Translations under genes and position numbers: made by a program | NCBI GenBank assembly: GCA_029258735.1 | Contig: JAPDKD010000036.1 | Location: 1 to 33,020, forward strand | Length of the DNA stretch: 33,020 bases | From: an archaeon | Lineage (GTDB): Archaea > Thermoproteota > Thermoprotei > Thermofilales > JAPDKD01 | Direction of reading: 5' to 3' | The notes under the pieces: generated by a model | Database searches by the model: none | What the model saw: the letters and a program-made list of their open reading frames with translations, nothing else | Told to the model about the DNA's origin: nothing | Part shown: piece by piece, positions 16,858 through 26,015 of the stretch | Layout: each line of letters starts with the position of its first letter | Position numbering within the stretch: the stretch's first letter is position 1

Positions 16858-17513
16858 ACGTAAAACTTGATGGTGTGGAAGTTGAAGTAGAACCAGGCAC
16901 AACCGTACTTGAAGCTGCTAAGAAGGCGGGTATTGAAATACCGCATCTCTGCACCTTAAAAGACCTATACAATGGTGCAAGCTGCAGGCTATGCCTAGTA
17001 AAAACCACGCGCGGCAAGCTGGTCCCAGCCTGCGCATACCAAGTCTATAGGGACGAGGAGTTCACAGTAAACTCTCTGGAATTGAAGAGAATAAGGAAAG
17101 TAAACTTTGAGCTCCTCCTGTCGTTTCATAAAATCGAATGCTGGAAATGCGAGAGAAAAGGCGACTGTCTCCTAGCCAGCCTTTCGCAAGAACTAGGAGT
17201 TGAAGGAATACCTGTGTGCTCGCAGTGCCCGCTGCCACCAGAGGAATGCTTGCTAACCAAGGGGATACTGTGCCTAGGCATGATAACAAGCTCCGGCTGT
17301 GACGCCGAATGCATAACGAGCGGTGGACAGTGCTGGGGATGCAGAGGGCCGATAACCAGAAGGGACGTCCTTGAGAGGGCGTTCAAGCGGTATGAGGAGC
17401 TAGGCTTTAACATCGACGACGTCCTATTCCGAGCTGAGATTTTCTGGAATTCTGTTCCCGCGTTTGAGAAGCTGAAAAAGGTAGCTGCTGAGGTGAGAGG
17501 TGGGAAGAAGTGA
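16851..17513 (+). CDS. Chimera A: HydA/HoxU N-terminal Fe-S domains joined to a [NiFe] small-subunit C-terminal cluster domain
   Basis: A 220-residue protein built of two origins. Residues 1-110 match the start of HydA/HoxU/NuoG: a [2Fe-2S] domain (C34, C45, C48, C61) and a His-Cys3 [4Fe-4S] site (H93, C97, C100, C106). Instead of the two ferredoxin clusters expected next, residues 121-170 read like the C-terminal medial/distal cluster segment of group 3 [NiFe] small subunits: PVCSQC, LCLGMITSSGCDAEC and CWGCRGP (Cys 123, 126, 133, 141, 150, 154, 161, 164). A helical tail follows. The strong SD GGGGGTGA precedes the ATG, and it overlaps the large-subunit start by 4 nt. It probably links the diaphorase to the NiFe module. 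The fusion reading rests on motif order, not alignment. Confidence 0.82.
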   Translation: MVNVKLDGVEVEVEPGTTVLEAAKKAGIEIPHLCTLKDLYNGASCRLCLVKTTRGKLVPACAYQVYRDEEFTVNSLELKRIRKVNFELLLSFHKIECWKCERKGDCLLASLSQELGVEGIPVCSQCPLPPEECLLTKGILCLGMITSSGCDAECITSGGQCWGCRGPITRRDVLERAFKRYEELGFNIDDVLFRAEIFWNSVPAFEKLKKVAAEVRGGKK

Positions 17514-18799
17514 AAAGCTTCTATATAGAGTTTGGAATAGAAGAGGTACCCGCAGTAGCGGGCAGGCTGGATATCTACGTTAAAGGCGACGAAGTCTCAG
17601 TCAAGGTGCGGTTCGGAGTCCTACAAGACCCCCGATTCTTCGAAAAATTCGTAAAAAAGAGGGACCCGATAGAAGTCCCCTATATGATGTCCAGAATATG
17701 CGGAGTCTGTAGCGTAGTTCACCTCACGTGCTCTACAATGGCGATAGAGAAAGCCATGGGAATCAAGCCGGAAGAAAACTCCCTAAAAATAAGAGAAATA
17801 GCAAAGGGCATGGAAATTTTACAAAACAACCTTATTCACGTTCTAATGTCAATACCAGACTTCACGGGCACGAAAAACGCACTAGAATTCTCCAAGAAAT
17901 ATCCAAACATATTCTCGAAAATAATGGAACTAAACACTAGAACTCTAGACGTCTACAGAAGAATAGGAGGAAGATTTATACATACACCCAGCATTGGCGC
18001 AGCATTTCACGGAAAGCCAATCTACAGGTACGAGCTTGAAGGCATAAGCAGGGAGCTCTCTAACCTATCGGAGGAGCTCCATTCTCTAGCTTACGAACTC
18101 GCAGAAATATGGAAGCCCCTAGCTCCCGGCTTTAAAGATCCCGTTCCGTCGTACTGTGTCCTGCAGGCCGATGACGGCTACCCGTTTTTCAGCGAAAAAC
18201 TCCTCTTCTCCGACGGTCAAGTAGTTCCAGCCGAAAAATACTACGAAACAATAGAAGAGCTGAAAATCGAATACTCCAACGCTCACTACACGCTATATAA
18301 GGGGAAGCCCTTCTACACCGGCTCCAGAGCCCGGTTACAAGCCTACTCTCACTTGCTCACTGATAGGACGAGGGAGGTAATTAAACTCTTAAAAATAGAC
18401 TATGATAATCCCTTTGAGAACGTTAAAGCACAATACGCTGAGGCGGTTCAAGTAACAGAGGTCCTTGCCCAAGTTGCTGCCGAGCTAGCCGCAAAAGTCA
18501 AACACAGCATTAAACCATTCTATCTGGAAAGGAGGAAAGACTGCACAGGCGAAGGTATAGCATTTGCCACCGCTCCTAGGGGTACTCTCATACATCACTA
18601 CCGTATAAGAAATGGAAAAATGGACTACGCCAACGTTATCACGCCGACCGTAATGAACGCTAGACACGTAGAAGTAAACGGCGAAGCGCTTATACGATGG
18701 CTCGCTAGCTCTGGCCAGCCAGACGAGGAAGAAGTGAAGCCGATTATAGCCGCGCTTCTCAGGGCATATGATCCGTGCCTTCCATGCGCAGTTCACTGA
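17510..18799 (+). CDS. hydL: [NiFe] hydrogenase large (catalytic) subunit, group 3-like
   Basis: A 429-residue protein carrying the Ni-Fe active site: RICGVC with following His (R62-C67, H71) near the N-terminus and DPCLPCAVH at the very end (C423, C426, H429). All four Ni ligands (C64, C67, C423, C426) are present. The protein stops at the His that is normally exposed only after a protease removes a C-terminal extension, so it appears ready without that step. No signal peptide is visible, so the enzyme is cytoplasmic. The start is GTG at 17510, overlapping the previous stop by 4 nt with AGAGGTGGG upstream. Its partners indicate a soluble NAD(P)-linked enzyme, comparable to HydABCSL or HoxEFUYH complexes. 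Confidence 0.95.
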   Translation: MKSFYIEFGIEEVPAVAGRLDIYVKGDEVSVKVRFGVLQDPRFFEKFVKKRDPIEVPYMMSRICGVCSVVHLTCSTMAIEKAMGIKPEENSLKIREIAKGMEILQNNLIHVLMSIPDFTGTKNALEFSKKYPNIFSKIMELNTRTLDVYRRIGGRFIHTPSIGAAFHGKPIYRYELEGISRELSNLSEELHSLAYELAEIWKPLAPGFKDPVPSYCVLQADDGYPFFSEKLLFSDGQVVPAEKYYETIEELKIEYSNAHYTLYKGKPFYTGSRARLQAYSHLLTDRTREVIKLLKIDYDNPFENVKAQYAEAVQVTEVLAQVAAELAAKVKHSIKPFYLERRKDCTGEGIAFATAPRGTLIHHYRIRNGKMDYANVITPTVMNARHVEVNGEALIRWLASSGQPDEEEVKPIIAALLRAYDPCLPCAVH

Positions 18800-21056: not shown

Positions 21057-23366
21057 TTACTCGGTTAAGGTGGAGGCAATAACTGCCTGCCCGAGCGCTA
21101 TGCCTCCATCGCCTGGAGGTACGCGTCTTTGAAGCTGCAGCCGGATACCATCCTCTTCCAGCCTCCTCCTCATGCCTCTGATTATTATGTCGTTGACGGA
21201 TGCGCCCCCGGAAACGTACACGACGCCATGTCTCCGCGCAGCCGGAGAGCGCGCAGCAATGCTGGCTAAGGCTTCGCCGAGCCTAAACAGTAGGGTATAG
21301 GCGAGCCCGGCCATGTCTCCATCTAGCTTCTCTAACATGTATTCAAAGGCCTCGGTAGTGTTCACTACGTAGACTCCATCCCGTTCTCCTACGGGTAAAT
21401 GTAAATCATCGTAAAGACGCCCACGCCTAGCATATGCTTCAAGCCTTATGGCCGGCTCTCCCTCGTAGGTTCTCGCGTAGCAGACGTTCAGCAAAGCGGA
21501 CGCTGCGTCGAGGACTCTTCCGGTGCTAGAAGTTAGAACGCTTTTTCTGGCTATGCGGTAGCTTACCCTTGCCTCTCGCTCTCCATGCTTCAGCTTATCT
21601 ATTAGATTCCTCTTCTTCAACAGATTTACTACCTCGTCTTCGCTGAGAAATCTCGATAAAACGCCTATCAGCATGCGGACAGGGTTTCTCGCGGCAGCAT
21701 CTCCACCAGGCATGGGCTGATAGGCTAAGTGACCGATCCGCCTAAACGATCTGTAGCAAGCCTCTAGAACTTCGCCTCCCCATATCGCTCCGTCGACGCC
21801 GTAGCCTGCTCCATCTATCGTAATTACAGCTCGCGTTTCTCCGGGTTCTACGCCTCGGTCGGCGAGAACAGACGCAGCGTGGGCATGGTGGTGCTGAACA
21901 TCCATAACTTCTGCCCCGTACTTTCTACTCCACATTACGCCTGCTAGCCGAGAGGTGTATCTGGGATGCTTATCAACAACTAACAGGGCGTTAGAGGGGT
22001 TGATCCTGTATACTTTTACGAAGAACTCCAGATACCTTTCCAAGTCCGTCAAAATGTCGTAGTCGTCTAGGTCTCCAATGTACTGAGTGAGGACTACCTT
22101 ATCCTCGAACGCTACGGCGCCGGCGGACTGGAAATCCGCTCCGAAGGCTATCACAGGCTTCTTAAAAACTAGGGGCACACGTATCCACATGGGAGCGTAT
22201 CCCCTGCTCCGCCTAAGAAATACAGGGGACCCCTCGGTGAGGCGGACGACGCTGTCATCTACCCTATTAACTATTCGCCTGTCGTGTAGGAGGAAGAAGT
22301 CTACGAAGCTGCTTAGCTCTCTGAATGCGCATTCTTCATCAATGCACATGGGCTTGCCTCTCTTATTGCCGCTAGTCATTATCAGGAACTTGTCCTTGGT
22401 AGACTTTAGGAGAAGGTAGTGGAGAGCGGTGTAAGGAAGCATAACCCCTATTACGTCGAGGCCTGGGGCTACGAGGCTGGCTAGATGTTTTTTTCTAGCC
22501 TTCAGCAAGACTATAGGCTTCTCGGGAGATGTGAGAAGCCTTCTAGATACGTCGTCTAGATATGCTATTTTCTCGACGATACGAATATCTAAGGCCATCA
22601 GCGCGAACGGCTTAGAGGGCCTATTCTTCCTCTCCCTAAGCTTGGCTACGACCTCTTCGTTAGTGGCTAGGGCAGCTATGTGGAATCCACCGAGCCCCTT
22701 CACTCCCACAATGTATCCTTCATCTATTAACTGGCCGGCCGTCGCGATAGGGTTCTTTGTTTGAATCTTCAAGCCTTTATTGTCGGTAAGCCAAACCTTA
22801 GGTCCACAGTTCGGACAGCTTATTCCTTGCGCGTGGAATCTCCTGAGATTCTCGGGGTCGGAATATTCTTGCTTGCAGTCCTCACACAGCGGAAAATCTC
22901 TCATAGATGTGTTAGCCCTATCGTATGGGACACCGTACATCATTGAGAACCTGGGCCCGCACCATGCACAGCTATTAAATGGATAACCGTGCCAACGACT
23001 CCCCGGCTCGAGGACTTCACGAAGGCAGTCTTCGCATATACCGATGTCTGGGGGAATCATTGACCGCCTTCCCATGCCTGTGAGGCTAGGTAGTATCTTG
23101 AACTCGCTCAAGTGGTCGATACACGTCTCTTCTCCAGAGATCTCCTCTATGCGTGCGGGTGGAGGCATTTCCGAAGCCAGGAGATGTAGAAACTTGTGAA
23201 CATTTTCCACGTTTCCTTGGATGAGGACCTCGACTTCGCTTCCTCCGAGGTTTCTAACGTAGCCTTTTACGCCGGCCCTGGAAGCCGCTCGGTATATGAA
23301 GGGTCTAAACCCTACTCCCTGTACTATCCCTATAACCAAGAGCTTTAAAGAATACTCGCAAATCAT
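21057..23366 (-). CDS. hypF: Carbamoyltransferase HypF, [NiFe] hydrogenase maturation
   Basis: A 769-residue protein that uses carbamoyl phosphate and ATP to load a carbamoyl group onto HypE, the first step of CN ligand synthesis. Domains in order: acylphosphatase (1-90, with GIVQGVGFRPFIYR), two zinc fingers (CEDC/CAWCGP and CEDC/CPNCGP, about 111-190), a YrdC-like nucleotide-binding domain (about 205-390), and a Kae1-like C-terminal domain with QHHHAHAAS. Length is normal. It is downstream of hypD on the same strand, with a 15-nt gap, and probably cotranscribed. It supports the hydrogenase operon 1 kb away. Confidence 0.96.
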   Translation of the reverse strand: MICEYSLKLLVIGIVQGVGFRPFIYRAASRAGVKGYVRNLGGSEVEVLIQGNVENVHKFLHLLASEMPPPARIEEISGEETCIDHLSEFKILPSLTGMGRRSMIPPDIGICEDCLREVLEPGSRWHGYPFNSCAWCGPRFSMMYGVPYDRANTSMRDFPLCEDCKQEYSDPENLRRFHAQGISCPNCGPKVWLTDNKGLKIQTKNPIATAGQLIDEGYIVGVKGLGGFHIAALATNEEVVAKLRERKNRPSKPFALMALDIRIVEKIAYLDDVSRRLLTSPEKPIVLLKARKKHLASLVAPGLDVIGVMLPYTALHYLLLKSTKDKFLIMTSGNKRGKPMCIDEECAFRELSSFVDFFLLHDRRIVNRVDDSVVRLTEGSPVFLRRSRGYAPMWIRVPLVFKKPVIAFGADFQSAGAVAFEDKVVLTQYIGDLDDYDILTDLERYLEFFVKVYRINPSNALLVVDKHPRYTSRLAGVMWSRKYGAEVMDVQHHHAHAASVLADRGVEPGETRAVITIDGAGYGVDGAIWGGEVLEACYRSFRRIGHLAYQPMPGGDAAARNPVRMLIGVLSRFLSEDEVVNLLKKRNLIDKLKHGEREARVSYRIARKSVLTSSTGRVLDAASALLNVCYARTYEGEPAIRLEAYARRGRLYDDLHLPVGERDGVYVVNTTEAFEYMLEKLDGDMAGLAYTLLFRLGEALASIAARSPAARRHGVVYVSGGASVNDIIIRGMRRRLEEDGIRLQLQRRVPPGDGGIALGQAVIASTLTE

Positions 23367-23381
23367 TTAATCCGTCAGCCT

Positions 23382-24578
23382 CTAAATATCGATTCCCAAC
23401 TCCTCGGCAATCTTTCTAGCTATGCCTGCGCCTCCATACCTAGCCCATACCGAGCAGGTTCCCTCAAGACTGACCATGCATGGTCCATAGGGGTTGGAGG
23501 GCGTGCAGCCCTTCAAGTACATAGGGCAGTCAGTCGGCTTAGCCTTACCCAGCGTTACCTCCGCGCACCTGCAGCCCGCCGGGATATCGTAACTCCATTT
23601 ATCGGGGTCAATGTCTTCGATGCCGTATGCGTTCAAAGCGTCCAGTGCAGCATATTTTTCCCTGAATTTTAAGCCGCTCTCGGGTACGAAGCCTATGCCG
23701 CGCCAAGCCGAATCCACCACTTCACAACACTCAGCTATGATCTTTTGTGCACCAGTGTTCCCCTCCCACGTAACAGCCCTCCTGTACTCGTTTACGAGCT
23801 TCGCCTCTCCAGCTAGGTTTTGTCTCAAAATCTCCAGTATTGCTAACATAACGTCAATTGGCTCGAAGCCAGCGACTACCACTGGTATCCCATAATCTTC
23901 GGCCACAAAGCTCCAAGCTTTAGCGCCAGTTATAGTGGATACGTGGCCTGGAGCCAAGACGCCATTGAGCCTTACTTCAGGAACGTTATCGAAAATGTAG
24001 CGCATAATCGGCGGTGTCAGCCTATTCACATTTATTATCTTAAGGTTAGGAGGCACTCTGCCCTGCACAGCTGGGGCAGCTGTGGCTGTCATTGTTGTTT
24101 CGAAGCCCACTGACAGAAACACCGAATCTCTGCCGTAGCTCCTAGCGCTTCGTATAGAATCTAAAAAGCTGTACACGACTTCCACGTTTCCGCCTTGAGC
24201 CCTGGCCTCCGCGAGGCTTCGCGGCAATTTGCCTTGCCTATAAAGCGAGCCTGGAAGCTTATAGACGTCTCCATACGAGTAAACTTTCACGCCGTCCATG
24301 GCTAAGCGTATAGCCACATCAACGTAGTATGCTGGCGTTATACAAACAGGGCAGCCCGGCCCCGCCAGTAGTTCAACGTTAGGCGGCATTATGCTGCGGA
24401 GCCCGTAATTTGTTATTGTCCACTCATGCGTTCCGCAAAAATTCATGATCTTAATAACATAGTCTTCTCCCTTTTTCTCTCTTATTTTGTCGCTAATCTT
24501 GTCTATGGCCTTCTTTATTTCATGGGCTAGCGAAGCGTCCCTAAAGAATGCCGTAACGCGTTTAACGCCGCTGTCCAT
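23382..24578 (-). CDS. hypD: HypD, Fe(CN)2CO assembly protein for [NiFe] hydrogenase
   Basis: A 398-residue iron-sulfur protein that, with HypC, builds the Fe(CN)2CO unit. Conserved Cys motifs are NFCGTHEW, GPGCPVCITP, PAGCRCAEV and the [4Fe-4S]-region CPMYLKGC. The ATG at 24578 is preferred: a TATA-like stretch (24608-24618) on this strand would place transcription start near 24587, which excludes the in-frame GTG at 24602. An imperfect palindrome (24585-24606) lies directly before it. It heads a hypD-hypF operon, divergent from hypE-hypC with a shared 168-bp control region. Confidence 0.93.
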   Translation of the reverse strand: MDSGVKRVTAFFRDASLAHEIKKAIDKISDKIREKKGEDYVIKIMNFCGTHEWTITNYGLRSIMPPNVELLAGPGCPVCITPAYYVDVAIRLAMDGVKVYSYGDVYKLPGSLYRQGKLPRSLAEARAQGGNVEVVYSFLDSIRSARSYGRDSVFLSVGFETTMTATAAPAVQGRVPPNLKIINVNRLTPPIMRYIFDNVPEVRLNGVLAPGHVSTITGAKAWSFVAEDYGIPVVVAGFEPIDVMLAILEILRQNLAGEAKLVNEYRRAVTWEGNTGAQKIIAECCEVVDSAWRGIGFVPESGLKFREKYAALDALNAYGIEDIDPDKWSYDIPAGCRCAEVTLGKAKPTDCPMYLKGCTPSNPYGPCMVSLEGTCSVWARYGGAGIARKIAEELGIDI

Positions 24579-24584
24579 GAATAT

Positions 24585-24606
24585 CCGGGTGGTGATATCC
24601 ACCTGG
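24585..24606. promoter_or_regulatory. Imperfect palindrome at the hypD start
   Basis: CCGGGTGG-TGATAT-CCACCTGG forms a 22-bp inverted repeat with one mismatch in the arms. It lies over the inferred hypD transcription start and 7 nt before its ATG. A DNA-binding regulator could sit here, but a role in mRNA folding is equally possible. No second copy was noticed near the hydrogenase operon. Confidence 0.4.
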
Positions 24607-24746: not shown

Positions 24747-25783
24747 ATGAAGGGAAGAATATTGTTGACGCACGGTGCTGGCGGCAAGGAAACAGGGGAG
24801 CTGCTTAACGCCTTGATAGTGTCTAGAATATGGGAGAATCTTAAGCGAGTCGAGGGAGGCTATGGTATAGATGTACTAGACGATGGCGCCACCATACCAC
24901 TGGGCGACGGAAGGCACATGGTGCTATCTATTGATTCTTTCACGGTCAATCCTATCTTCTTCCCAGGCGGAGACATAGGAAAGCTAGCCGCAACAGGCTC
25001 CGTAAATGACGTAGCCGTAATGGGGGCTAAGCCTATAGCGCTCATGGACTCGATAGTCGTAGAGGAAGGCTTCTCCATGGAAGACTTGGAAAAAATAGTC
25101 AAGTCTATGATAGCGGTGCTGAGGAAGAAGGCATAGCCATCATAGGCGGAGACTTCAAGGTAATGCCCAAAGGTCAAATAGACAAAATAGTGATATCCAC
25201 CGTCGCCGTAGGCATAGCTTCTAAACCTATCATAGATAAGCATCTCAAGCCCGGAGACAAAATAATAATCTCAGGAACAGTGGGCGAACACGGAGCAACA
25301 ATAATGGCCCTGCAGCAAGGGCTGGGCATCGAAGCAGGGGAACTGAGAAGCGACTGTCAACCTCTCACTAAGCTTATGCTCCCGCTAGTTGAGAAATATT
25401 CCGACAATATACATGCAGCCCAAGACCCTACGAGAGGAGGAGTAGCCCAAGTTCTAAACGAATGGGCGCAGAAGACGGGGAACATAATCGTGATAGAAGA
25501 AGAAAAAATACCCATACGAGAACCTGTGAGAGCCTACTCTGAGATGCTCGGCGTCGACCCACTCTCCCTGGCATGCGAGGGCCGCGTCCTGCTAGGAGTA
25601 GAACGCGAAGCTGCGGAAAAAGTCTTAAAGTATATTCGAAACCTAGGCTACGTCGATGCAGAGATTATAGGCGAAGTACACGAGCCGAAAAAGCACAAAG
25701 GACTAGTACTAGAGAAAACAATAGCCGGCGGAATAAAAGTTTTAGAACCTCCAAGCGGTGAAATAGTGCCTCGAATATGCTAG
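24747..25783 (+). CDS. hypE: HypE, hydrogenase maturation, interrupted by a -1 frameshift
   Basis: HypE dehydrates the carbamoyl group on its C-terminal Cys to make the cyanide ligand. The N-terminal part (24747-25136) begins MKGRILLTHGAGGKETGELL with ATP-site DDGATIPLGDG, but runs into a stop after MIAVLRKKA. The rest (to 25783) continues in the -1 frame: reading GAG from 25121 gives EEEGIAIIGGDFKV and then an intact HypE end with the essential C-terminal PRIC. One base is missing around 25119-25121 relative to a full gene of about 345 residues. No extra sequence exists to suggest an intron. Sequencing error, true mutation or -1 frameshifting are all possible. Followed by hypC with a 10-nt gap. 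Confidence 0.9.
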
Positions 25784-25793
25784 GCGAATACTC

Positions 25794-26015
25794 ATGTGTC
25801 TAGGCATCCCGGCACGGGTAGTAAAAACTAAAGGAGTAACAGCAATAGTCGACATGGGAGGTGTACTCAAAGAAGTAGATGCCAGCTTCACTCCCGTCAA
25901 GCCAGGCGAATACGTAATAGTACACGCCGGAATAATCATAAGCAAGCTTGACCCTAAAACCGCGGAAGAAACGCTAGAACTATGGAAAGAAATACTGCAA
26001 AACCTGCAATCATAA
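25794..26015 (+). CDS. hypC: HypC/HupF-type hydrogenase maturation chaperone
   Basis: A 73-residue protein starting MCLGIPARVV. The second-position Cys is the key residue that binds the iron centre and the large-subunit precursor, and the GEYVIVHAGIIISKLD segment is the family core. It works with HypD to deliver the Fe(CN)2CO unit to the large subunit encoded upstream. It follows hypE by 10 nt, in the same operon. Length is normal. Confidence 0.95.
   Translation: MCLGIPARVVKTKGVTAIVDMGGVLKEVDASFTPVKPGEYVIVHAGIIISKLDPKTAEETLELWKEILQNLQS

Follow-up and report, generated by a model that had tools for sequence, protein, structure and literature searches.

Does a hydrogenase maturation gene that changes reading frame in its middle record a dead gene, a recoded gene, an intron, a divided protein or a fault in the sequence? 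The question is raised by hypE in the window, the whole stretch of DNA analysed here, which comprises 33,020 nucleotides (G000:C7:1-33020) of an archaeal draft assembly of 1,414,698 bases in 139 contigs. This assembly is 84.88% complete and 2.07% contaminated, and its closest available relatives belong to the same order, with nothing nearer. From the draft state in 139 contigs, the completeness and contamination figures and the order-level relatives, we infer that it is a metagenome-assembled genome. A plasmid search and a viral-contig scan were both without result.

As it stands, hypE consists of two pieces in two frames that overlap:

24747-25783, plus strand: hypE overall, broken once, last residues PRIC
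24747-25136, plus strand: 5′ part, frame 0, 129 amino acids, TAG at 25134-25136, AIRS domain, TIGR02124 positions 1-116
25124-25783, plus strand: 3′ part in the second frame, AIRS_C domain, PRIC followed by a stop
25031-25136, plus strand: overlap in which both frames are open, the second frame being open from 25031
25090-25095, plus strand: run of six A (A6) inside the overlap, where a slip would continue the protein but misread the conserved residues before VLR
25121-25124 (about), plus strand: frame break between VLR and EEG of a conserved peptide, one nucleotide short relative to relatives

The open reading frame of the 3′ part spans 25163-25783 (206 amino acids) in another frame than the 5′ part and begins at ATG 25163, the earliest ATG, GTG, TTG or CTG in that frame. 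In a search with the HypE profile TIGR02124 the 3′ piece takes up at position 111 and continues to 332, where the 5′ piece had covered 1-116; the two pieces reach 235.5 and 130.8 bits, each singly below the cut-off of 251.6. Pfam places one domain in each piece, AIRS in the first and AIRS_C in the second, and the AIRS match stops at position 83 of 112. Thus the gene has both domains of a HypE and a C-terminal PRIC with the acceptor cysteine, a motif named for the HypE C-terminus in the accessible portion of PMC12130793, and lacks a single continuous reading frame.

The size of the gap was determined by aligning the two pieces separately and comparing the distance between them in the window with that in each relative. 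Against every one of the 38 loci having both halves, the window lacks exactly one nucleotide. At the site, relatives read through in one frame (SMLAVLREEGVALIGGDLKV in L031, SMMRILREEGVALIGGDFKV in L014), and in the window the first frame reads SMIAVLR and the second EEGIAIIGGDFKV. By tblastn the N piece is 39-76% and the C piece 40-69% identical to the relatives, and the reverse search, with open reading frames of the relatives as queries, recovers the identical break. Because both halves are homologous over their length and the reverse search agrees, sequence comparison confirms that the break is a real property of the sequence as given, with chance excluded. The first-pass annotation had proposed that one base was missing at 25119-25121, within 25107-25165, from an otherwise intact gene. 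The one-nucleotide shortfall and the normal domains on both sides bear this out, and its position was right to a few bases, since homology places the break inside the same interval at no more than 5 bases from that estimate.

The break is not shared by relatives. A family search for hypE across 61 genomes gave a match at E ≤ 0.001 in 60 and a match above the cut-off in 39, these 39 being listed without internal stop. For comparison at the site, 39 loci were assembled, 30 from the family search and nine from a genome-contig scan, one of the nine (L039) being bacterial. The N and C parts share one open frame in 38 of these 39 loci, or in 36 of 37 when the duplicate pairs L021/L033 and L023/L037 are each counted once, and of the 38 loci in which both halves are present, not one has a break like that of the window. 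The exception, L038, lies on a Thermofilaceae metagenome-assembled contig of 22,929 bases with coverage 1.83, apparently G007:C147, whose hypE match ends at base 22929. Its hypE frame meets a TAG close to the contig end, a few codons before the equivalent site; this lesion looks like a substitution and is not the break of the window. G007 also has a match to hypE positions 1-91 on a separate contig, C203. A further genome, G023, has a partial match to positions 1-200.

A second hypE elsewhere, which in the first-pass annotation would have made this copy a pseudogene, was sought and not found in the 84.88% complete assembly, where the two matches at E ≤ 0.001 are the two halves themselves. Likewise, there is no near DNA copy among 27 genomes of the order: DNA matches occur in 23 of the 27 (own genome included), and those in other genomes that span at least 130 bases show 63-73% identity, which is too divergent for a near copy.

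The genes that would depend on HypE lie around it:

25794-26015, plus strand: hypC, intact, right of hypE
23382-24602, minus strand: hypD, intact, left of hypE
21057-23366, minus strand: hypF, intact, left of hypE
17510-18799, plus strand: [NiFe] hydrogenase large subunit with the motifs RICGVC and DPCLPCAVH

HypC, HypD and HypF match their families across nearly the full profile and the large subunit keeps both cysteine motifs, so that, judged from their sequences, all four look functional. This agrees with the first-pass annotation, which found the other hyp genes and the hydrogenase functional in appearance and for this reason would not expect hypE to be dead. The large subunit terminates exactly at DPCLPCAVH (18768-18799), with no C-terminal extension. 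A hydrogenase large subunit usually has such an extension, which is cleaved in maturation. Elsewhere in the genome, close to the edge of a contig, lies part of the C-terminus of a second [NiFe] hydrogenase large subunit (L063, G000:C88:25-384). No hypB was found above the TIGR00073 cut-off of 121.2 in this incomplete assembly, the best match being a weak one at C18:6569-6691 (24.2 bits); another type of HypB is possible.

A second conserved gene of the window has a disrupted frame:

120 to about 1125, minus strand: cbf5/truB, frame broken by an insert
885-906 (about), minus strand: cbf5 insert, 22 nt between HAGTLD and PKVSGVLPV, the latter in another frame

By its peptide context the insert is apparently at the known position of the archaeal cbf5 pre-mRNA intron; the accessible part of PMC2738675 gives 19 to 36 nt as the length of archaeal cbf5 introns, with several species lacking one. 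A CBF5 model search of 31 genomes found the match split at about position 70 in 12, own genome included; three of the others have one match with an internal stop, 14 have one stop-free match and two have none above the cut-off. The minimum-energy fold of 63 nt at the insert is no more stable than shuffled sequences (z 0.19), which leaves a bulge-helix-bulge unconfirmed.

The frequency of frame breaks in the assembly was assessed on 233,020 bases, the window plus ten 20-kb stretches. A homology scan with 893 open reading frames of relatives as queries covered 53,124 of these bases and found hypE as the only one-gene frame break; the cbf5 insert went unreported by the same scan. Its minus-strand rows, all within hypE, are read as antisense shadows of the gene. 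A codon-usage scan of the same sample gave 53 junction candidates, four of them with an extension score of at least 3.0: hypE and three others, L047 (Adenosine_kin/PTH2), L043 (no family/PfkB) and L040 (no family/SDH_protease). These three look like gene boundaries; both families of L047 are full-length, and for L043 and L040, where the upstream open reading frame has no family, a gene boundary is the probable reading. The cbf5 insert is not among the best 25 of the 53 candidates, and a Viterbi-path version of the scan returned no candidates, missing hypE itself. When breaks were simulated, the codon-usage scan, given 140 deletions and 140 insertions, recovered 19 and 17 of them, respectively, at a score of 7.0, and 50 and 40 at 3.0. 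It is in agreement with the homology scan, but with recovery this weak its silence means little. Thus hypE stands as an isolated event in an assembly not shown to be rich in indels, which is compatible with a rare error and with a real mutation alike.

Ranked by likelihood, a sequence error most likely comes ahead of a recent or strain-level indel, and programmed frameshifting, as an unlikely reading, comes after both. The break looks accidental, and nothing found at the site suggests deliberate frameshifting. A full-length HypE would result if ribosomes shifted by -1 or if transcription slipped at the A6 run, and both frames are indeed open over 25031-25136, a stretch that includes the A6 at 25090-25095; -1 frameshifting is moreover known in archaea from fucA1 of Sulfolobus solfataricus, as described in the accessible text of PMC8211752, from which the general and archaeal criteria used here were also taken. 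We nevertheless regard recoding as improbable, because slippery heptamer, downstream structure and conservation in relatives are all absent. The overlap holds no X_XXY_YYZ heptamer in frame 0 and only two half matches, as the first-pass annotation had said of a canonical slippery heptamer. The 100 nt at 25118-25217, folded without pseudoknots, are ordinary (z-score -0.15, 86 of 200 shuffles at least as stable), and the break is missing from all 38 loci that have both halves. The A6, which the first-pass annotation did not mention, is the sole homopolymer run in the overlap (at least 5 A or T, or at least 4 G or C), but runs of at least six A are commonplace, with 22 on the plus strand of the window. 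A slip there would put KNSQVYDSGAE in place of the conserved residues up to VLR, and the frame change is therefore placed after the A6. The more specific case of a real break with a rescued HypE, by slippage at the A6 with a locally altered helix or by a heptamer-free -1 shift at AGG (25122-25124), has a very slim chance; if true, this would add a chromosomal gene to the very few cases of archaeal recoding, with an output measurable as hydrogenase activity. Among the papers found on hypE, frameshift and hydrogenase maturation no title concerns a hypE frameshift, and the whole word hypE is absent from the accessible part of PMC6085454. That hypE is naturally two proteins that assemble would draw on the ATG at 25163, but this first second-frame start, CTG included, lies beyond the conserved EEG-IIGGDFKV, the break cuts the N-terminal domain, with AIRS matched only to position 83, and not one of the 38 loci is divided there; we reject a natural split on these grounds as highly improbable. 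Hardly conceivable is a short pre-mRNA intron cut out by the splicing endonuclease, as seemingly in cbf5, where a 22-nt insert sits in the same window at an apparent known intron position. Splicing only removes sequence, whereas in all 38 comparisons hypE is short by one nucleotide rather than long and contains nothing extra that could be cut out to restore the frame, so the intron is rejected.

The choice is then between a faulty and a mutated sequence. We consider that hypE is probably an ordinary gene from which a mistake in sequencing or assembling this metagenome-type draft removed one nucleotide at about 25121-25124. Of the two causes offered by the first-pass annotation, error or slippage promoted by purine-rich repeats, error is thus the one favoured, and for slippage the A6 run is the sole positive point. 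A genuine recent one-nucleotide deletion that inactivates hypE, giving a young pseudogene or a strain variant, fixed or in part of the population, is possible and clearly less likely. Both halves are free of other frame breaks or stops, and their dN values are 0.18 (N half) and 0.23 (C half) to L031 and 0.21 and 0.23 to L032, so they have diverged about equally from the nearest relatives. Extra stops, frame breaks and raised divergence were thus sought in hypE as marks of further pseudogene decay and not found, although a very young pseudogene would show none either, and the missing second mark is as expected for a very young lesion. The hypE break is also the sole one found in the sampled bases, the cbf5 insert aside, so that its cause is not shown to lie in poor assembly overall; these bases do not give the impression of an assembly riddled with indels, there is no long homopolymer at the break site, and a real recent mutation would give an identical picture. 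Against a mutation stands the lack of a second hypE in an assembly whose hypC, hypD, hypF and hydrogenase are intact. A dead hypE would make these genes purposeless, and the hydrogenase would then be without its cyanide ligands, given the established pathway (accessible portion of PMC12130793). It is on this basis that error, rather than mutation, is taken as the probable source of the missing nucleotide, and the weighting of the two is a matter of judgement. The accessible text of PMC3711429, which supplied the scheme for classifying isolated frameshifts, notes that a singleton confirmed by BLASTp and Pfam may be an error in a functional gene or an indel in a pseudogene. That of PMC8021871 states that long-read indel errors, if uncorrected, cause frameshifts, in contrast to Illumina data.

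If the error reading holds, HypE is probably one continuous protein in the organism; it would convert the carbamoyl group from HypF into a thiocyanate on its own C-terminal cysteine, from which cyanide would be delivered to HypC-HypD. For annotation, the genome is not to be counted as lacking hydrogenase maturation for one broken draft frame.

Set against known systems, the gene is like HypE (TIGR02124; AIRS, AIRS_C) in both domains, in their order and in the PRIC end, and differs from it by one broken frame that leaves each piece under the cut-off alone. The fucA1 gene of Sulfolobus solfataricus, as presented in the accessible text of PMC8211752, resembles hypE in having two overlapping open reading frames with the second in the -1 frame; however, fucA1 combines a slippery heptamer with rare codons and a putative stem-loop, whereas hypE has neither heptamer nor unusual fold. 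The archaeal cbf5 pre-mRNA intron (accessible part of PMC2738675) likewise disrupts a conserved gene's frame in related archaea. The cbf5 interruption is apparently processed and recurs across relatives: the insert adds sequence and is common to many of them, whereas the hypE break is a missing nucleotide and has no counterpart among the loci compared.
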